In this document: one piece after another, positions 28,875 to 46,504 of the stretch
Position numbering within the stretch: position 1 is the stretch's first letter
How the letters are laid out: the number at the start of each line of letters is the position of its first letter
Assembly (NCBI RefSeq): GCF_031951985.1
Contig: NZ_JAVLVU010000001.1
Span: 4,526,001-4,590,000 of the forward strand
DNA: 64,000 nt
DNA from: Mucilaginibacter terrae
GTDB lineage: Bacteria > Bacteroidota > Bacteroidia > Sphingobacteriales > Sphingobacteriaceae
Direction of reading: 5' to 3'
Notes under the pieces: generated by a model
The model's database searches: none
Seen by the model: the letters and a program-made list of their open reading frames with translations, nothing else
What the model was told of the DNA's origin: nothing
Program-made: the position numbers and the translations under genes

Positions 28875-28962
28875 TACAGCGGTAAATGTACGAAAATGCT
28901 GTGGAAGTTGCCGTGAAAATGTAAGGTCAGGGGATGAACTTGGTCATTTGCGAGAGGGAGTT

Positions 28963-29073
28963 TTCCCCTCTTGAGAGGGGCAGGGGTGTGTCATTACGTT
29001 GGACAGGGCTTGCAAGCGTAGAGACACACCCCTGCCATCACACTGCCTTTCCCGCCCCCTCTCAAGAGGGGAA
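28963..29073. repeat. Inverted-repeat element (family I), non-coding copy 1
   Basis: 111 bp bounded by TTCCCCTCTTGAGAGGGG at the left and CCCCTCTCAAGAGGGGAA at the right, with inner arms AGGGGTGTGTC and GACACACCCCTGCC. The whole is one long imperfect palindrome. It lies between divergent cmk and arfB. Other copies are at 41393, 43906 and 45437. No target duplication was seen. Confidence 0.85.
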
Positions 29074-29098
29074 TGTTTGTGCTATAAATAATTAAACT

Positions 29099-38719: not shown

Positions 38720-39646
38720 TTATTGCTTAAACAAAGTTTGCGACAGATGTTTTATGCCATCCTCGTAGCTTGTAGGCTTCACATTAAACGCCCGCTCAAA
38801 CTTATCCGAATTAAAAATATAGTCATGGTCATACTGGTAATACATTTCAACCGTGCCCTGTATGGTTTTTTTGAAAAGGCCCAGGAGTTGCAGCATGAAC
38901 TTATTCACCGCCGTGTAACCGGGTTTGGTATTAAACACCCGGGCCGCCAGCTCAATAAACTGTTTGCCTTGTAGTGGTGCAGCGGTAGGCAAATGCCATA
39001 TTTGATTATCATGTTCGGGGTGCTGGCCTAACAAATACATGGCTTCGCCAGCATCGGGCACATAGGTAAAACTGTGTAAGGTTTGAGCGTTGCCCATCCA
39101 CATGGCTTTTTCCTTTTTGGCATATTTGTCAAGCACCATCATGTCAAAAAAGCTGTTCATGCTTTCGGCACCATAAAAATCGGCAGCACGGGCAATAGAA
39201 GCCTGCAGATTACCGGTACTGACCTCGCTCATCAATTGTTCGGCTACCTTAGCCCTCACTTCTCCTTTTACGCTAATGGGGTTATAAGGCGTGGTTTCAA
39301 GCATAGGGCCGTTAACCAACCCGTACATGTATACATTATCAAAAAATATGAGTCGGGCATTGGCATTGTTTGCAGCATTAATGATGTTTTGCATAATTAT
39401 GGGCCACTGCTGTTTCCAAACGTCTTTATCGTACACCAAACCGGCACACATGTAAATTACGGTTGCGCCTTTGGTTGCTTCTATAACTTCGGCTTGCCGG
39501 GTAAGGTCGGCCTTTTGCCAGGTAACGTTAGGGTTATTAAAATTCACCTCACTGCGGCTCACCAGCTTTACCGGCAAATTAGCTTGTATGAATTGTTTGG
39601 TAAGCGCGTTAGCCACCGGGCCGCCTGCTCCTAATATAATATGCAT
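38720..39646 (-). CDS. NAD(P)-dependent epimerase/dehydratase-like protein
   Basis: 308-residue Rossmann-fold protein of the extended SDR superfamily. It opens with HIILGAGGPVANALTKQF, an atypical GxGxxG (GAGGPVA), followed by KLVSRSE, WQKADLTR and VIYMCAGLVYD. The active-site YxxxK is not obvious: the segment where it is expected reads YNPISVKGEVRAKVAE, so it may be a non-catalytic atypical SDR. The nucleotide cofactor and substrate are unknown. A minus-strand -7 box (TACCTTTG, 39675-39668) lies 21 nt upstream, which supports the chosen ATG over a 55-codon extension that translates repeat DNA. Confidence 0.85.
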   Translation of the reverse strand: MHIILGAGGPVANALTKQFIQANLPVKLVSRSEVNFNNPNVTWQKADLTRQAEVIEATKGATVIYMCAGLVYDKDVWKQQWPIIMQNIINAANNANARLIFFDNVYMYGLVNGPMLETTPYNPISVKGEVRAKVAEQLMSEVSTGNLQASIARAADFYGAESMNSFFDMMVLDKYAKKEKAMWMGNAQTLHSFTYVPDAGEAMYLLGQHPEHDNQIWHLPTAAPLQGKQFIELAARVFNTKPGYTAVNKFMLQLLGLFKKTIQGTVEMYYQYDHDYIFNSDKFERAFNVKPTSYEDGIKHLSQTLFKQ

Positions 39647-39667
39647 AGTTTTGAGTATTTGATAAGC

Positions 39668-39675
39668 CAAAGGTA
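39668..39675 (-). promoter_or_regulatory. Promoter box of the epimerase-like gene
   Basis: TACCTTTG on the minus strand, 21 nt before the ATG at 39646. A TTTTG about 16 bp further upstream could be the -33 element. Confidence 0.5.
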
Positions 39676-39718
39676 GACCTGCGCTGATGCTCAAAACGTT
39701 AACAAAAGATAAGAATTT

Positions 39719-39865
39719 GGTTGAGTGGTGAGTAGTTGAATGGTGAGTGGGCAATTGTGAGTGGTGAGAGAGTGGTGTAGATTGGTGTTTTTTTAGAATT
39801 GAATTACTCATTAATCCAGGAGTGATAAATTCTGCAGTTCAATAAAATTCTTATAATTCCGGTTC
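39719..39865. repeat. Tandem short-word repeats, families E and F
   Basis: 39719-39779 is a string of GAGTGGTGAGTAGTTGAATG-like words (family E, also at 11697, 61983 and 63738). 39823-39865 is a family F copy whose reverse complement begins GAACCGGAATTATAAGAATT. The last bases include the Crp gene stop codon. Confidence 0.65.
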
Positions 39866-40475
39866 AAAGAGATTTTTCGCCAACCAATATACGCTTGCGT
39901 ATGCGCGATAACGACACATGGGTTACACCCAAAAAATGTGCAATATAATGTTGAGGAATGCGCTGTATAATATCCTTACCAGTACTGAGGAGCTTTAAAT
40001 AACGCTCCTCTGGCGTTTGGGTAACAAAGGAGGCAATACGGTCTTCATAGCAGCAAAGGTAATGCTCGGCCAGCAGGCGGCCAAAGCGTTCCATTTTGTA
40101 AGCCAGTTGCGGGTTAGCCAAAAGTGTTTCCCACTGCTTGCGGGTAACTACAATCAGATCGGTATCTTCCAGAGCTTGAATGTAATTAATGCCAGGTTCG
40201 TGCTTCAAAAAACTTTTATAAGAACTTATAAATTCATGGTCGAAACAAAAATAGCCTGTAAACTCAGTGCCATCCTTAATGTAAAAAAACCTTACAGAGC
40301 CATTTATAATAAATCCCAAACGGTCTTCGATCTTTTCGGCAACGGTAAAATATTCTTTCTTTTTGAGAGTGAGATAACCAACATGTTGAGAGCATATCTG
40401 CCATTCTTCGTCGGTAAAATCAACAAAGCGCGCCATACCGGCCCTGAACTTTTGATTGGCTATCTGTGTATCCAC
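39864..40475 (-). CDS. Crp/Fnr-family transcriptional regulator
   Basis: 203-residue regulator with an N-terminal cyclic-nucleotide-binding-like jelly roll (about 20-130; RLGFIINGSVRFFYIKDGTE, then ALEDTDLIVVTR) and a C-terminal helix-turn-helix IPQHYIAHFLGVTHVSLSRI. The Arg/Ser residues that bind cAMP in E. coli Crp are not apparent and there is no Fnr cysteine cluster, so the effector is unknown. The gene overlaps the end of the upstream UbiA-family gene by 16 nt, so the two form an operon. Its stop codon falls inside a family F repeat. Confidence 0.9.
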   Translation of the reverse strand: MDTQIANQKFRAGMARFVDFTDEEWQICSQHVGYLTLKKKEYFTVAEKIEDRLGFIINGSVRFFYIKDGTEFTGYFCFDHEFISSYKSFLKHEPGINYIQALEDTDLIVVTRKQWETLLANPQLAYKMERFGRLLAEHYLCCYEDRIASFVTQTPEERYLKLLSTGKDIIQRIPQHYIAHFLGVTHVSLSRIRKRILVGEKSL

Positions 40476-41317
40476 AACCTGTCAATTAAAAAGAATACAG
40501 CAAATACTACACTGGCAATGCCGTTAGTAGTCATGAAGGCGAAGTTTACGCGGCTTAAATCATTTGGTTTAACCAAACGGTGCTGATATACCAGCATGCT
40601 GCAATAGACCGCAATGCCAATATAATAGGCAAAGCTAAACTCGTAAAAAACAGCCGGCAAAATGATAAATATGGCCGAGAGTACATGCAAAAAAGTAGAC
40701 AAGTTTAAGGCCCTTACCGTACCTAAGGCACTCGGTATTGAGTGCAGGTTATTGCTGCGGTCAAAGTCTTCATCTTGCAGGGCGTAAATAATATCAAACC
40801 CGCTTACCCAGCACACCACCGCTAACGAAAAGAATACCGGCAGCATAGCAAACTCTCCGGTTACTACCAGGTAGGCACCAATGGGTGCCAATGATAACCC
40901 TAAGCCCAACACCAAATGGCAAAGCGCCGTAAACCGTTTAGTTGCGCTGTAACCCAGCACCACCAGCAATGCCACCGGCGACAGGTAAAAGCACAGTTTG
41001 TTAATAAATAAAGTAGTGATGATGAACAAACTGCAATTAACCAGCGTGAATATCAACGCGCTTGAAGGAGTGATTCGCCCCGCAGGAATATCACGCACTT
41101 TGGTGCGGGGATTCATCGCATCAATATCGCGGTCGAGGTAGCGGTTAAAGGCCATGGCCGAGTTACGGGCAAATACCATACACAATAGCATCAACAGTAG
41201 TTTTACCCAGTTAAAAGTATGCTCAGTTGTAGATACCGCCAAAAAAAAGCCAATAAAGGCAAACGGCATAGCAAATATGGTATGCGAAAACGTAACTAAG
41301 GAAAAGTATTTTTTCAT
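40460..41317 (-). CDS. UbiA-family prenyltransferase (quinone biosynthesis)
   Basis: Integral membrane prenyltransferase of the UbiA superfamily, 285 residues with eight to nine helices. The first Asp-rich motif is Asn58-Asp62-Asp66 in AFNRYLDRDIDAMNPRTKVR, the second is YALQDEDFDR. The opening FSHTIFAMPFAFIGFFLA resembles the UbiA-like enzymes of menaquinone synthesis, including MqnP of the futalosine route, more than MenA. In a menaquinone-using Bacteroidota it probably prenylates a menaquinone precursor. The partner pathway genes are not in the window. It overlaps a Crp-family gene downstream. Confidence 0.88.
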   Translation of the reverse strand: MKKYFSLVTFSHTIFAMPFAFIGFFLAVSTTEHTFNWVKLLLMLLCMVFARNSAMAFNRYLDRDIDAMNPRTKVRDIPAGRITPSSALIFTLVNCSLFIITTLFINKLCFYLSPVALLVVLGYSATKRFTALCHLVLGLGLSLAPIGAYLVVTGEFAMLPVFFSLAVVCWVSGFDIIYALQDEDFDRSNNLHSIPSALGTVRALNLSTFLHVLSAIFIILPAVFYEFSFAYYIGIAVYCSMLVYQHRLVKPNDLSRVNFAFMTTNGIASVVFAVFFLIDRLWIHR

Positions 41318-41335
41318 TTTTATCAATCAATCTTT

Positions 41336-41367
41336 TTCCCCTCTTGAGAGGGGTAGGGGTGTGTCAT
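41336..41367 (+). repeat. Family I end sequence, solitary copy
   Basis: TTCCCCTCTTGAGAGGGG followed by TAGGGGTGTGTCATG, in direct orientation to the left end of the 41393-41914 element 26 bp further on. It may be the remnant of an earlier insertion. Confidence 0.8.
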
Positions 41368-41392
41368 GTACACATGCAAATCTCCCAACATG

Positions 41393-41914
41393 TTTCCCCT
41401 CTTGAGAGGGGTTAGGGGTGTGTCATTACATATACAAATCAAACCCTGCTTTTAAACTCTTCTAAATATGCTTCCAGCGTTTTCAAAACATTGAACATGT
41501 CATTTATTACTTCAAACTCACTAAATCTAATTACAGTCAAATTGTAAATACCTAACTCTGCATCACGTTGAGCATCTGCTTCGCTAATGCCCTCATGATA
41601 ACGTCCGTCTATTTCAATCACCAAATCTAACTCAGCGCAGTAAAAATCGACAATATAATTCAGCAAGGGCTTTTGTCGTTGGAAATCATAGTTGTGAAAC
41701 TGTTTGTTCCGCAACTCTTGCCAAAGTTTTATTTCTGCGGGAGTACTATTGTTTCTTAACTGCCTTGCAAGTTCCTTTAGGTGTGCTTTGTAGGGGATTA
41801 TTTTGCGTGGCATTTTATATGCTAAATTAATTAATCACTTCGAGAAGACGCACTCTTAGTTTGTTAGCTGCTCGCTTTGAAGGACACACCCCTGCCCCTC
41901 TCAAGAGGGGAAAA
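41393..41914. mobile_element. Candidate mobile element: family I inverted repeats enclosing a DUF559 gene
   Basis: The left end (41393-41425) reads TTTCCCCTCTTGAGAGGGG then TTAGGGGTGTGTCAT; the right end (41883-41914) is its inverse, GACACACCCCTGCCCCTCTC then AAGAGGGGAAAA. The 522 bp between and including them hold one gene, DUF559, and little else. The same ends border the 106-117 bp elements at 28963, 43906 and 45437. The layout is that of an autonomous element with non-autonomous derivatives. Mobility is an inference; no target duplication was seen. Confidence 0.6.
41439..41813 (-). CDS. DUF559 endonuclease-like protein
   Basis: 124-residue protein of the DUF559 family (COG2852), with the restriction-endonuclease/Vsr-like fold. 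Conserved features: ARQLRNNSTPAEIKLWQELR, then FQRQKPLLNYIVDFYC and LVIEIDGRYHEG, where Asp of VDFYC and Glu-x-Asp of VIEIDG form the expected metal site, and the C-terminal LTVIRFSEFEV strand. Family members are predicted nucleases; no substrate is proven. Both ends of this gene are bordered by inverted family I repeats, and the gene fills the element, so it is the obvious candidate for the protein that processes or moves these repeats. Confidence 0.88.
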   Translation of the reverse strand: MPRKIIPYKAHLKELARQLRNNSTPAEIKLWQELRNKQFHNYDFQRQKPLLNYIVDFYCAELDLVIEIDGRYHEGISEADAQRDAELGIYNLTVIRFSEFEVINDMFNVLKTLEAYLEEFKSRV

Positions 41915-41944
41915 CTTCAGGCATACTGAAAAAATTAAAACTCA

Positions 41945-42568
41945 CTAATCAAACCTCTTATAATCAGGCTTAACAAACGTTTTATTTATCTCATCAATAA
42001 AGCCCAGCACTTCATCTTTACCTAATTTATTTTCAGATGATGTGATGAAAAACGGAGGTGCTTCTTCAAAAGTTTCCAGTAACGCTTTACGGAAAAGTGC
42101 AACATTCTGGTCGGTTTTTAGTCCAGACTGTTTATCGGCCTTGGTAAATACCACCACAAACGACAAGCCCTTTTCGCCAAGCCAATTGCAAAACTCCACG
42201 TCTATTTTTTGCGGTTCCAGGCGGCTATCAATCAGTACCAGCACGCATTGCAAACTCTCCCGTTTATCAAGGTAGGTGCGGATAAATTTGTTCCAATCCT
42301 CTTTTTTGGTTTTTGATATACGGGCATAGCCGTAGCCGGGTAAATCAACCAGGTACCAATGCTCATTAATGTAAAAATGATTTATGAGCTGGGTTTTACC
42401 AGGCGTTTGCGACGTTTTGGCCAACCCTTTTTTATTGGTCAGCATATTAATCAACGAAGATTTACCTACATTGGAGCGACCAATGAAAGCGTACTCCGGT
42501 TTTTCGGGAGGGGGTAGTTTTGATATTTGCGTGTTACTGCAAATAAATTCAGCAGATTTGACAATCAT
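41945..42568 (-). CDS. engB: Ribosome-biogenesis GTPase EngB (YsxC)
   Basis: Essential small GTPase needed for large ribosomal subunit assembly. G1 is GRSNVGKSS at residues 30-38, the switch region is TSQTPGKTQLINHF, G3 is DLPGYGYA and G4 is TKADK. Length 207 is normal. The start at 42568 is exactly 4 nt after a perfect minus-strand -7 box and matches the family amino end (IVKSAEFICSNT); a longer reading overlaps the divergent VOC gene and is unlikely. Confidence 0.96.
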   Translation of the reverse strand: MIVKSAEFICSNTQISKLPPPEKPEYAFIGRSNVGKSSLINMLTNKKGLAKTSQTPGKTQLINHFYINEHWYLVDLPGYGYARISKTKKEDWNKFIRTYLDKRESLQCVLVLIDSRLEPQKIDVEFCNWLGEKGLSFVVVFTKADKQSGLKTDQNVALFRKALLETFEEAPPFFITSSENKLGKDEVLGFIDEINKTFVKPDYKRFD

Positions 42569-42572
42569 GGTA

Positions 42573-42602
42573 CAAAGGTAACAGTTGTATATCTTAAATT
42601 TG
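42573..42602. promoter_or_regulatory. Divergent promoter boxes for engB and the VOC gene
   Basis: Minus strand TACCTTTG at 42580-42573 lies 4 nt before the engB ATG. Plus strand TAAATTTG at 42595-42602 lies 20 nt before the VOC ATG at 42623. Only 14 bp separate the two boxes, so the polymerases would compete. Confidence 0.5.
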
Positions 42603-42622
42603 ATGTTTAAACATATAATTAC

Positions 42623-43111
42623 ATGAGCTACACAATTCCTGCACAAACCCGTATTGGTCATGTGCATTTAAAAGTAAGTGATCTGCAACGCTCCATTGCT
42701 TTTTACTGCGGCCTGTTAGGTTTTGAACTGGTAATGAAATATGGCGAGCAGGCCGCTTTTATTTCGGCAGGGGGCTATCATCATCATATTGGGTTGAACA
42801 CCTGGCACAGCTTAGGCTCCGAACCTGCACCTGATCGCTATCCCGGCCTGTATCATACCGCAATTTTATATCCCGAGCGCAAAGACCTTGCTGCTATAAT
42901 GCAACGTTTAATTGATGTTAAGTACCAGCATATTACCGGCGCGTCAGACCATGGCGTATCAGAAGCTATTTACCTGAACGACCCCGATCTTAACGGTGTA
43001 GAACTTTACTGGGACCGCCCCAAAGAGCTATGGCCGCAAGATGAAGCCGGTAACTTAACCATGTTTACCCGCCGTTTAGACATTGATAACCTGCTGGCCG
43101 AACTGAAGTAA
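42623..43111 (+). CDS. VOC-family ring-cleavage dioxygenase/glyoxalase-like protein
   Basis: 162-residue vicinal-oxygen-chelate protein. RIGHVHLKVSDLQRSIAFYC is the first beta-alpha-beta module with His16 as a metal ligand; YHTAILYPERKDLAAIMQRL starts the second module with another His; Glu in NGVELYWDRP completes the His-His-Glu site. This resembles catechol-2,3-dioxygenase-type CatE proteins more than glyoxalase I, but the substrate is uncertain. It is divergent from engB. Confidence 0.88.
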   Translation: MSYTIPAQTRIGHVHLKVSDLQRSIAFYCGLLGFELVMKYGEQAAFISAGGYHHHIGLNTWHSLGSEPAPDRYPGLYHTAILYPERKDLAAIMQRLIDVKYQHITGASDHGVSEAIYLNDPDLNGVELYWDRPKELWPQDEAGNLTMFTRRLDIDNLLAELK

Positions 43112-43114
43112 TAC

Positions 43115-43849
43115 CTAAAAAAACTTTTCGAGCTTAAGGCCGTAGGTAAGCAGCGTATTCTCGGCCTTGGTACGGGTAATTCTGTTGTAGGTTAACGAAC
43201 TGTTTAGCGCCAGCCAGTTGGTGATCTTAAAACCTAAGGCAAAATTTGTGCGTATGATGTGATCATTTTTGCGGGTTAATGATGGTTGCCAAAAGTTGCC
43301 GCTATCAATGGTAATTAAATTATTAAATACAAAATGCATTTGCAGCCTTAATGAGTTTCGGTAGGTGTAATATAACTCGCGCGTGGTATCGCTGGTATTA
43401 ATATCACTAAGGTCATAAAGTATACCATCGCTTAAATTAAGGTAAGCGTTGGGTTTATCTAAAATACTGTAAGCAATACCACCACCGGCCAGCAATTGGT
43501 TGTTTATTTTAAGCGAGTAGCTGGTATTATAATTAGCCAGCCCCCAATAATAAGCATGAGGTATGGCTTTGTACAAGTTAAAGTCTACCGATGAAGAATA
43601 ATCATTATTGGTTAGCGCGCCGTTTGATTTGCCATACACCCAGGTGTTGGTAGCGTTAAGGGCGATGCTCTCCTTTTTCATTTCAAACCTTAGTCCGTTA
43701 TTGAGCAAATAAGTATTGCCCTCGGGCGCCCGGTTGGCGGTTCCGGTGCCGTTAAAAACAACATGGTAGTTTGTAGTGTCGTTAAACTGAGCTCGGGCCG
43801 TAAACCCCGCCAGCAGTAAGAGTGGTATAATTATAAAAGTTTTTTGCAT
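43115..43849 (-). CDS. DUF481-like outer membrane protein
   Basis: 244-residue protein with a signal peptide (MQKTFIIIPLLLLAGFTARA) and an amphipathic beta-strand pattern throughout (YHVVFNGTGTANRA, WGLANYNTSYSLKINNQLLA, SLRLQMHFVFNN), ending in YGLKLEKFF with terminal Phe. It resembles DUF481 barrels. Function unknown. The gap upstream carries a family I element nested in an outer inverted repeat, beginning 20 bp before the ATG. Confidence 0.75.
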   Translation of the reverse strand: MQKTFIIIPLLLLAGFTARAQFNDTTNYHVVFNGTGTANRAPEGNTYLLNNGLRFEMKKESIALNATNTWVYGKSNGALTNNDYSSSVDFNLYKAIPHAYYWGLANYNTSYSLKINNQLLAGGGIAYSILDKPNAYLNLSDGILYDLSDINTSDTTRELYYTYRNSLRLQMHFVFNNLITIDSGNFWQPSLTRKNDHIIRTNFALGFKITNWLALNSSLTYNRITRTKAENTLLTYGLKLEKFF

Positions 43850-43868
43850 TCAAAAGCAGTTTTCAAAC

Positions 43869-44027
43869 AACCGCTTTTAAAAGAATGGTGCTGTGGGTTG
43901 TGCGCTTCCCCTCTTGAGAGGGTGGAGGGGTGTGTCATTTTTAACCTGAAAAGTTTAAATGACACACCCCTGCCAATACTCAACCTTGCCCACCCCCTCT
44001 CAAGAGGGGAATACTTTAAAAGCGGTT
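43869..44027. repeat. Family I element (43906-44011) nested in an outer inverted repeat
   Basis: The inner 106 bp run from TTCCCCTCTTGAGAGGGT to CTCTCAAGAGGGGAA with GGGGTGTGTCATTT/AAATGACACACCCC arms. Outside it, AACCGCTTTTAAAAG (43869-43883) and CTTTAAAAGCGGTT (44014-44027) form a second inverted repeat around the element, which suggests insertion into the loop of an existing hairpin. Confidence 0.8.
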
Positions 44028-44087
44028 TGGTAATCATTTAACCGACAACCAAACCGCCCTATTGTTTGCCTAACAAAAACCTTATGC

Positions 44088-45338
44088 TTATCCCAACATC
44101 AATGTATCATCGTCATCGGTAAGGCTCAATTGTATGTTCTCGCTACCGGCAATACCCTCAATGGAGCCCTGTATGTGTACCGCGCTTAATAATACTTTTT
44201 CCAGTTGCTTTTCGCGCACCTTCCATAGTTTTTCCATGGCTTCGCGCTCACGCTGAATAGACAGGCGCATACTGCCAAAACCCTCGCGCAGGGCTTTCCA
44301 TTGCTCGTTAAATTCGCTGCTGGTGAGGTAATCGTACAGCAGGTGCATTTTATCGCCTTTACCCTCCTGTGCCTTTATAATGGCCGAAGTTTTCATTACG
44401 CCCTGGCGTAACACGTACGATACCGCCTTTACCTCGCTGAACGAACATATCCAAACGCCGTCTTTCTCGCCAAAGCATTCCATATCCTTAGGGTAGCATT
44501 GGGTAACAATAACGGCAATATCGGCACCCATGGCGCGCATATCTTTTTTTAGCTTCTCTATCCAGTCGCCGCCAAACTCTTTGGTGCGTTTGCTTTCATA
44601 GATGATTTTGCCGCATTCCTGCCCAAACTGGTTGCGCACGGTTTGTATACAATCGGCCCCGCGTATACCTTTGCCCACCTCGCTCACCATATCAAACGGA
44701 AAGTAACTGCGTAGCTGTTCTTCCAGCATCAGCTCCTGCACTTCGCCCTGCAACTGCATCGAGCCTTGCTCGGCTTTGCGCTTCATTTCTTCGGCCAGCT
44801 TTTTTTGGTCGTCCAGTTGCTTTTCCAATTCTTTTACCTTAAACTGGTATTCGTTATCGCGCAGGGAGAATTTTTCGGCTTCCTGCTTGCGTATCTGCTC
44901 GGCCAGGGCTTCTCGCTGTTCCTGTAATTTACGCTCGGTCACCAGTTCCAGTTCTTCTTCGCGCTGTTTTAAGCCTTGCTCTTTTTGTAAAAATTCCAGC
45001 TCTTTTTGGCGCGATGCACGCAGCTTTTCGTCCTGCTCCTTCAGGGAGTTTTCGAGCATGTGCATTTGGTTTTCCATATCGGCCTGAATGGTACGGCGAA
45101 GCGTTTGCTCCATATCCTGTTGCAATTCGCGCTTTTCTTCTACCAAACGTTGCTCAAACTGCTGTTGCTGCTGGCGCTGCTTAATGGCGTACTCCTCATC
45201 CTTTTTCTTATACTCATCTTCCTTTTGCTGGGTATACTGCTGCATTTTGTTACGAAGCTGCTTTTTATACTCCTCGGTCATTACCTCCTCAATTGGAAAG
45301 CTGTGACTGCAATTAGGACATTTTACTTCTGTGGCCAT
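44088..45338 (-). CDS. DUF2130 protein with zinc ribbon and long coiled coil
   Basis: 416-residue protein. VKCPNCSHSFPIEEV is an N-terminal zinc-ribbon half with one CxxC pair; residues about 20-205 form a continuous charged coiled coil very rich in Gln, Glu, Lys and Arg; DUF2130 follows from about 210 (YFPFDMVSEVGKGIRGADCI, IIYESKRTKEFGGDWIEKLK, IAVIVTQCYPKDM). The Asp/Glu-x-Lys pattern (ADC ... YESKR) resembles a PD-(D/E)xK nuclease core, as has been proposed for the family. Biological role unknown. Flanked on both sides by family I elements. Confidence 0.88.
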   Translation of the reverse strand: MATEVKCPNCSHSFPIEEVMTEEYKKQLRNKMQQYTQQKEDEYKKKDEEYAIKQRQQQQQFEQRLVEEKRELQQDMEQTLRRTIQADMENQMHMLENSLKEQDEKLRASRQKELEFLQKEQGLKQREEELELVTERKLQEQREALAEQIRKQEAEKFSLRDNEYQFKVKELEKQLDDQKKLAEEMKRKAEQGSMQLQGEVQELMLEEQLRSYFPFDMVSEVGKGIRGADCIQTVRNQFGQECGKIIYESKRTKEFGGDWIEKLKKDMRAMGADIAVIVTQCYPKDMECFGEKDGVWICSFSEVKAVSYVLRQGVMKTSAIIKAQEGKGDKMHLLYDYLTSSEFNEQWKALREGFGSMRLSIQREREAMEKLWKVREKQLEKVLLSAVHIQGSIEGIAGSENIQLSLTDDDDTLMLG

Positions 45339-45436
45339 ACCTTTTAATTACAGCATAAAGGTAACGGTAATTTTGCTAATTTTTTAAGCAAAGGTTTAAA
45401 GAGTGGAGGTGCTGGCTTTTAGGGGGGATGGTGCGA

Positions 45437-45553
45437 TTCCCCTCTTGAGAGGGGTGGAGGGGTGTGTCATGTTATAGGATAGGTTTTTTCATGCAAGCGT
45501 ACTGACACACCCCTGCCTCGCGCAATCCAACCCGCCCCCTCTCAAGAGGGGAA
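45437..45553. repeat. Inverted-repeat element (family I), non-coding copy 4
   Basis: 117 bp from TTCCCCTCTTGAGAGGGG to CCCCTCTCAAGAGGGGAA with GGAGGGGTGTGTCATG and TGACACACCCCTGCC inner arms. The central word CATGCAAGCGTA resembles CTTGCAAGCGTA of the copy at 28963. Confidence 0.85.
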
Positions 45554-45634
45554 TTTTGAAACTTCAATCCTTTTTTCAAATTATTTGTAATTTCATCATC
45601 AACAAAGCATCTAACTAACAAACACTAAAACACC

Positions 45635-46420
45635 ATGCAAAACCACGAAATTGACTACCGCATTTTTGGCGAAGAAATGCAATACGTAGAAGTTGAGCTC
45701 GACCCGAGCGAAACCGCCATTGCCGAATCGGGCGCGTTTATGATGATGGACGAAGGCATACAAATGCAAACCATTTTTGGCGATGGCAGCCAGCAGCAAG
45801 GTGGCGGCTTAATGGGCAAACTGTTTAGTGCCGGTAAACGCTTACTGGTTGGCGAAAGTTTGTTCATGACCGCGTTTACCAACATCGGGCATGGTAAAAA
45901 ACGCGTGAGCTTTGCATCTCCTTATCCGGGTAAAATTATCCCTTTAAATTTATCGCAATTAGGCGGATCGGTTATTTGCCAAAAGGATGCCTTTTTATGC
46001 GCGGCCAAGGGAGTAGCTATCAATATCGAGTTTCAGCGTAAACTGGGCACCGGCTTGTTTGGCGGCGAGGGTTTTATTATGGAACGTTTGCAAGGCGATG
46101 GTATGGCCTTTATGCATGCAGGCGGCCACGTGTTTGAACGCACTTTGCAACCCGGCGAACTCATTAAAATTGATACCGGTTGTTTGGTAGGCTACACCAG
46201 CGGCGTAAATTTTGATATTGAATTTATTGGCGGTATACGCAACAAAATATTTGGTGGTGAGGGTATATTTTTTGCAACCCTGCGTGGCCCGGGTAAAGTG
46301 TGGATACAAACCCTGCCGGTTAGCCGTTTGGCCAGCCGTATACTCAGTTATGGCGTTGGTGCACGTAAAGAGGAGGGCAGTATTTTAGGAGGATTGGGTA
46401 ATTTGCTTGATGGGGATTAA
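45635..46420 (+). CDS. AIM24/TIGR00266-family protein
   Basis: 261-residue cytoplasmic protein of the AIM24 family, built from three similar beta-helix-like repeats. Recognised by YVEVELDPSETAIAESGAFM, MTAFTNIGHGKKRVSFASPY, PGKIIPLNLSQLGGSVICQK and the GGEGFIMERLQGDGMAFMHA core. Bacterial members have no established function; the yeast namesake is mitochondrial. It stands alone, with a family I element upstream and a family H inverted repeat downstream. Confidence 0.9.
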   Translation: MQNHEIDYRIFGEEMQYVEVELDPSETAIAESGAFMMMDEGIQMQTIFGDGSQQQGGGLMGKLFSAGKRLLVGESLFMTAFTNIGHGKKRVSFASPYPGKIIPLNLSQLGGSVICQKDAFLCAAKGVAINIEFQRKLGTGLFGGEGFIMERLQGDGMAFMHAGGHVFERTLQPGELIKIDTGCLVGYTSGVNFDIEFIGGIRNKIFGGEGIFFATLRGPGKVWIQTLPVSRLASRILSYGVGARKEEGSILGGLGNLLDGD

Positions 46421-46428
46421 TGTTTTAA

Positions 46429-46504
46429 GTTCATAGTTGATGGTTCATAGTTCATAGCCGGAATTTGGCAGCTACCATGAACCATCATCTATGAACCATG
46501 AACT
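46429..46504. repeat. Family H inverted repeat (GTTCATAG words) between convergent genes
   Basis: Left arm GTTCATAGTTGATGGTTCAT; right arm ACCATCATCTATGAACCATG then AAC. The words are also found near 52300-52345. It separates the AIM24 gene from the anti-sigma gene and could act as a bidirectional terminator. Confidence 0.65.

Follow-up and report, generated by a model that had tools for sequence, protein, structure and literature searches.

The window analysed here, a 64,000-nucleotide stretch of the genome of Mucilaginibacter terrae, contains a small nuclease gene enclosed by inverted palindromic ends, together with three gene-free mini-elements that share the same type of end (type A). The features are as follows.

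41439-41813, minus strand: nuclease gene of the DUF559 family (PF04480), whose 124-aa product has a Vsr/EDxHD-like fold and conserved D56, E67 and D69
41334-41365, plus strand: outer left end (palindrome and tag) of 32 nt, the best partner of 41883-41914, with 97% complementarity
41394-41424, plus strand: inner left end, with palindrome CCCCTCTTGAGAGGGG, spacer TT and tag AGGGGTGTGTC
41883-41914, minus strand: right end, inverted, of which the short form (41883-41912) pairs with the inner left end
41945-42667, minus strand: neighbouring GTPase gene (PF01926), presumably engB/ysxC, near the 3' side of which a DUF559 gene lies in several genomes of the genus
40460-41326, minus strand: neighbouring UbiA-family prenyltransferase gene (PF01040), which at several element-free sites starts soon after engB
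28961-29075, unstranded: gene-free mini-element with type A ends, single-strand folding z -8.1
43904-44013, unstranded: gene-free mini-element with type A ends, single-strand folding z -10.2
45435-45555, unstranded: gene-free mini-element with type A ends, single-strand folding z -7.9

The sole Pfam match of the gene product is PF04480 (E 6e-31), and no HUH tyrosine (Y1) transposase lies between the repeats. Of the protein's eight best named relatives, five come from Mucilaginibacter. An earlier note on this DNA had described a DUF559 gene between inverted ends that are shared with gene-free elements, and this layout is confirmed at 41334-41914; the mini-elements that it placed at 28963, 43906 and 45437 are present as well, and they fold strongly as single-stranded DNA. 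Two of its details need revision. The end at 41336, which was regarded as solitary, pairs better with the right end than the inner left end does, and because these two arms match over 32 nt with 97% complementarity, the element possibly spans 41334-41914 with the inner end nested in it. The ends, which were said to be identical, share a palindrome (CCCCTCTTGAGAGGGG) that is constant or one base off (at 43906), while the spacer ahead of the AGGGGTGTGTC tag may be TT, T, C or TGG; in the mini-elements, one tag is set apart from its palindrome by about 20 nt. The tag of the window element's ends is G-rich, and the coding element's two short ends, taken alone, fold as single strands little better than shuffles (z -2.0 and -1.0). 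A 23-nt inverted repeat at 46429-46496 belongs to a different family from the window ends.

Mini-copies of these ends are dispersed through the genome. The exact 16-mer end palindrome has 43 copies in the 5.49-Mb single-contig genome, as against none for the reversed control, and among the copies listed it often forms inverted pairs with starts about 80-100 bp apart, that is, mini-elements. Terminal inverted repeats common to coding and non-coding forms, a MITE-type feature, are present. The palindrome-plus-tag layout, the GTAG within the outer left end (GGGGTAGGGG) and one weak Y1_Tnp match in the genome might lead one to think of a plain REP system driven by a Y1 (RAYT) transposase, to which the DUF559 gene is an accidental neighbour. 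However, GTAG is not constant among the ends, the Y1_Tnp match at 3789351, rejected as a candidate RAYT, is far from the type A copies listed (the nearest being at 3825000), and the association described below is far above controls for a chance neighbour, which makes this explanation very improbable.

The genome has two further DUF559 genes, and each of the three is bounded by inverted palindromes, the families of which differ. The flanking inverted-repeat score is 29.5 for the gene at 41439-41813, and the other two genes, with families other than type A, have end scores of 14.5 and 26.5. DUF559 occurs in 87 of 100 genomes of the genus, and 115 genus loci were taken from the matches listed (3 from this genome, 29 others, 80 hand-picked and 3 from an extra search). 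With a score of at least 12 as the threshold for flanking inverted repeats, and a test set of 92 loci (the 3 own genes, the 29 best-scoring loci and 60 hand-picked ones, mostly short open frames), 78 of 92 DUF559 loci reached the threshold, compared with 2 of 92 control intervals from the same loci and 18 of 92 pairs of swapped left and right flanks. In the gene-centred control, the figures were 31 of 695 for ordinary genes and 14 of 188 for genes of 270-600 bp. The link that had been drawn from one locus thus holds beyond it, and the contrary expectation, that DUF559 genes would be no nearer to the repeats than other genes, is not borne out, as they are far more often repeat-flanked. Whether the gene is kept without the repeats has a mixed answer: most loci are repeat-flanked, but 14 of the 92 genus loci score below 12. 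When the ends of the 115 loci were labelled by family, using patterns written after inspecting the ends, 68 had the same family on both sides, but in 39 only one flank carried a motif and in 8 neither did. At the engB site of G001, the gene is likewise present with an end motif on one side only.

The same layout is found in Alphaproteobacteria, Cyanobacteria and Chloroflexi, and the named loci also include ones in Pseudanabaena, Calothrix, Thiothrix and Mesorhizobium. Among named loci beyond the genus (the best 80, minus 13 at contig edges, leaving 67 with full flanks), 49 of 67 score at least 12 and 38 of 67 at least 16; among 335 control intervals, these thresholds are reached by 13 and 1, respectively. 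In the class sample, 83 of 149 genomes carry DUF559, and 22 of 29 loci, taken from among the best-scoring, reach a score of at least 12, compared with 1 of 87 controls. The end palindrome is repeated in some of these genomes as well: 89 copies with up to one mismatch (control 0) are present in a Mesorhizobium genome, many as inverted pairs about 120 bp apart, and nine with up to three mismatches in Calothrix, two of them being the element's own ends. RIME are repeats of rhizobia. Of five plasmid DUF559 loci, only that of A. lipoferum 4B has a convincing end pair (25.5), the others being those of A. brasilense (14.0), Sinorhizobium C101 (9.0) and two cyanobacterial plasmids (10.0 and 14.5). For the loci examined, both the association and its specificity are firm. 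As separate observations, the cyanobacterial plasmid DUF559 genes at L344 and L345 adjoin a PglX-type methyltransferase gene and a DUF1156 gene, possibly a restriction or defence setting, and one genome (G160:C1) has eleven DUF559 matches, two of them about 560 bp apart. A search for defence genes with PADLOC gave weak matches only.

The AlphaFold model of the window protein (pLDDT 91.4) is nearest in fold to the DUF559-like protein 3hrl (Z 15.8), I-Bth0305I (Z 11.5) and Vsr (Z 9.2), the last in agreement with the Vsr-like fold that had been attributed to DUF559 proteins. The catalytic domain of I-Bth0305I (3r3p) is matched by sequence (E 3.6e-5) and by Foldseek (E 1.2e-4), and 3hrl is also matched by sequence. 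The catalytic residues D56, E67 and D69 are conserved in 113 of the 115 nucleases. A mitochondrial ribosome protein domain also appears in the fold search, between I-Bth0305I and Vsr (Z 9.6). EDxHD-type homing endonucleases are described in the available part of PMC3943268, and a DUF559 gene is assigned to the EDxHD family in that of PMC9403480. Residence in introns or inteins was not apparent: no Rfam family, introns included, reached the gathering threshold in 14 loci, and no intein family was among the Pfam matches of 16 host proteins (6 scanned at 1e-8 and 10 at 1e-10). In the region 40400-46000, two matches to miRNA families, below gathering, fell on the palindromes and were rejected as chance hairpins.

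A nuclease of this fold might instead have a role in its host, for example in Vsr-like repair, and the repeats, moved by another enzyme or by replication errors, might repeatedly have enclosed it as a passenger. A precedent for such a role comes from Caulobacter, in which, as far as the accessible text of PMC12907096 goes, the SOS response after loss of a methyltransferase needs VsrA, a DUF559 protein that works in the methylation-linked DNA damage response. What would be unexpected if the gene were merely enclosed is how tightly the end family tracks the nuclease. The end family follows the tree of the 115 nucleases, many forks of which are unresolved, and one clade, of 8 loci, is without any recognised end; exceptions to the match between tree and label are the helicase locus (L034) and the TruB locus (L002), both of which carry D-like motifs although they fall inside the B/G part. 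Grouping by neighbouring genes gave 45 sites, and on the 44 one-per-site representatives used in the label test, 24 of which are type C, the label changes 6 times (minimum 5), compared with 16-20 times in 200 shuffles, in genomes that are related and hence not independent. Co-variation of stem and tag (mean 4.52 versus 4.15 for shuffled ends, 0 of 500), in a sample of 44 of the 56 ends obtained from 125 sites and loci, was set aside as small and confounded by ancestry.

The number of repeats in a genome is also related to the type of nuclease. Type A palindromes have a median of 13 in the 25 genomes with a type A nuclease (11 minus the two own ends) and of 2 in the other 75 genomes (P 5e-5, or 7e-4 with four ends subtracted), for which the calls of nuclease absence are uncertain because they rest on the matches listed. 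Thus, G022 was counted as nuclease-absent though a DUF559 reading frame adjoins engB; frameshifted DUF559 copies lie near engB in G013 and G026, and G090 was counted as nuclease-present only through an extra targeted look. Type C repeats are not in excess in genomes with a type A nuclease (P 0.26). The 29 genomes with a type C nuclease have a median of 6 type C repeats, or 4 after subtraction, compared with 2 elsewhere (P 0.007), an excess that is gone once four ends are subtracted (P 0.16). At least 20 type A copies are present in 13 genomes outside the nuclease-carrying group, some of which have an overlooked intact or broken DUF559 gene. G073, G062, G085 and G074, which have 62, 36, 11 and 8 type A copies, respectively, gave no DUF559 match even at E 1, and repeats in such genomes are what would be expected if another agent moved them around a passenger gene.

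In several cases, DUF559 resides in frame within housekeeping enzymes, such as inside an Lhr-type helicase at L001 and at the C-terminus of TruB at L002. The Pfam-confirmed hosts, with one locus each, are the helicase, TruB, a MeaB/methylmalonyl-CoA mutase protein (called IcmF), LeuRS, a histidine-biosynthesis protein (HisF) and a glutamine amidotransferase (HisH). In the class sample, 16 of 29 DUF559 loci are within open frames of more than 700 codons, and the hosts at the 10 of these 16 that were scanned are LeuRS (6), methionine synthase (2), HsdR and acetyl-CoA synthetase; the six LeuRS inserts lie on either side of the editing domain. Palindromic elements in frame in unrelated conserved genes, a trait of the Rickettsia type, are present, several of the copies having no detectable end pair; at the in-frame loci L353, L358, L368 and L370, no flanking end pair of score 12 was found. 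Silent-site divergence of the insert is about that of the host in IcmF and LeuRS, and exceeds it in the helicase. The match at IcmF and LeuRS suggests vertical inheritance, although silent sites are near saturation and the comparison accordingly counts only against recent transfer. The dN/dS ratio, mostly saturated and computable for 28 of 91 IcmF, 21 of 45 HisF, 6 of 10 LeuRS and 4 of 28 engB pairs, is about 0.1, that is, strong purifying selection, which would also fit a host function. Host-like silent divergence under purifying selection, in-frame copies devoid of detectable ends, and repeat families free of DUF559 that occur in frame at the same helicase site all favour a passenger gene with a host role, an explanation that we nevertheless regard as unlikely, since such close tracking of the end family across 44 sites would not be expected of it.

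The helicase site itself deserves description. Between SRLK and IWGISAT, many of 30 loci (L256-L283) have in-frame repeat-like inserts of several unrelated families, for example QLAVGS...TANCQL, and not DUF559 ends alone. In the window, the N-terminus of the ORF at 38720-39811 (SHHSQLPTHHSTTHHST) is a repeat-like in-frame extension that resembles the helicase-site insert in L274.

Relic copies are found at several sites. The full insert is present at the helicase site in 4 genomes, whereas G047 has a short in-frame scar, in which a left end and an apparent partial right end survive, and G083 and G051 have a single right end. In Sinorhizobium sp. C101 (L343), the DUF559 gene has a repeat on one side only, and S. 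meliloti Ak57 (pSymB, L347) lacks half of this gene and half of the adjoining repeat, a deletion that fuses the remaining halves of a DUF559 gene and a rhizobial repeat. On the engB side, where 14 of the 115 loci share neighbours, the copy of G035 carries a stop, and G011 has a relic that matches the DUF559 gene of G022 (0 of 200 shuffles; two others tried gave 7 and 3 of 200). In G040, a gene-free type A element of 149 bp lies 3' of engB, and the sequence inside it is borderline DUF559-like (1, 1 and 29 of 200 shuffles).

The G040 element could also be read as an unfilled site, if the mini-elements predate the nuclease and the gene was copied, like a homing gene, into a repeat that it cuts. 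The homing-endonuclease fold and the resemblance of the ends to two halves of one mini-element are in line with such an order of events. However, the type A motif is absent from 420 bp at 24 of the 30 engB loci read, only two (G011 and G040) of the 6 loci with the motif are without an intact gene there, and the end family co-varies with the nuclease, so that prior existence of the target appears quite improbable. Comparison of G031 with G013 (about 93% identical where aligned) placed 16 repeat clusters, 8 of them at the same place; the remaining 8 were not clean, some with misplaced flanks and including an eroded copy of type C and a site where G013 has type A but G031 type D, and 8 further clusters had no flank match. 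Among the clusters placed, no clean empty/filled pair with target duplication was found. Another MITE-like family (GTCATTGCGAGGAACGAAGCAATC) varies in presence and absence between these two genomes.

Overall, the reading that we prefer, with a probability of roughly 0.58, is that the DUF559 nuclease acts on the ends of its own element and thereby spreads it by cut-and-repair, the mini-forms arising by internal deletion. Within a family of palindrome-ended elements, the DUF559 gene would represent the coding (autonomous) form, and its Vsr/EDxHD-type nuclease would recognise ends of that family (palindrome plus tag) and cut at these or at a matching target. Repair would then place new copies elsewhere, either of the whole element or of a mini-form with an internal deletion, in the manner of a homing endonuclease or a RAYT acting for its own DNA, and nuclease and ends would move and evolve as one unit. 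Internal deletion would let copies decay to mini-elements, single ends and in-frame scars, and some copies may settle in frame within housekeeping genes. Recognition of the ends, cutting, copying by repair and the origin of the mini-forms from the coding form are inferred, and nuclease-driven movement is the simplest reading, conservation being explicable by a host role too. If it is correct, palindromic repeat families gain a candidate moving enzyme, many DUF559 genes gain a role, and a route is provided for the in-frame entry of a nuclease domain into housekeeping enzymes; furthermore, the origin of the repeats becomes directly testable with one small protein and matched DNA ends. More tentatively, and at slightly less than even odds, these elements may form an unnamed class that extends over several phyla, in which a lone DUF559 nuclease of the Vsr/EDxHD type works on the palindromes that bound its element, gives rise to dispersed repeats (perhaps with rhizobial and Rickettsia-like ones among them) and colonises essential enzymes in frame, as inteins do but without splicing.

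These elements share features with known systems, but there are also differences. As in REPtrons (REP plus RAYT), as outlined in the available part of PMC3733652, dispersed short tagged palindromes flank the gene of a DNA-cutting enzyme; the enzyme here, however, has a Vsr/EDxHD nuclease fold rather than that of an HUH tyrosine transposase, and in place of a constant GTAG/CGTC tag, both spacer and tag vary among the ends. Rickettsia palindromic elements are likewise palindromic, about 150 bp long and in frame in unrelated genes, but the accessible portions of PMC10969869 and PMC3733652 name no coding partner for them, unlike the nuclease-coding long form found here. EDxHD homing endonucleases such as I-Bth0305I share the catalytic-domain fold (Z 11.5) and sequence (E 3.6e-5), whereas the present elements have palindromic ends and gene-free copies and gave no sign of residence in introns or inteins at the loci scanned, though free-standing forms need not have it. 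In MITEs that have an autonomous partner, the gene-free copies likewise share their ends with a coding element, but here there is no transposase between the ends, and no target duplication could be read among the clusters compared between G031 and G013. In addition, Vsr has a similar fold (Z 9.2) and Caulobacter VsrA carries DUF559, although the role proposed there, in the part of PMC12907096 at hand, is mismatch repair linked to cytosine methylation and not mobility. A literature search of limited scope turned up no study that links DUF559 to palindromic ends or to in-frame residence. The recurrence of the layout around related nuclease genes in other bacteria, with ends that differ by nuclease lineage, suggests that DUF559 genes with palindromic ends may be a little-noticed kind of mobile DNA.
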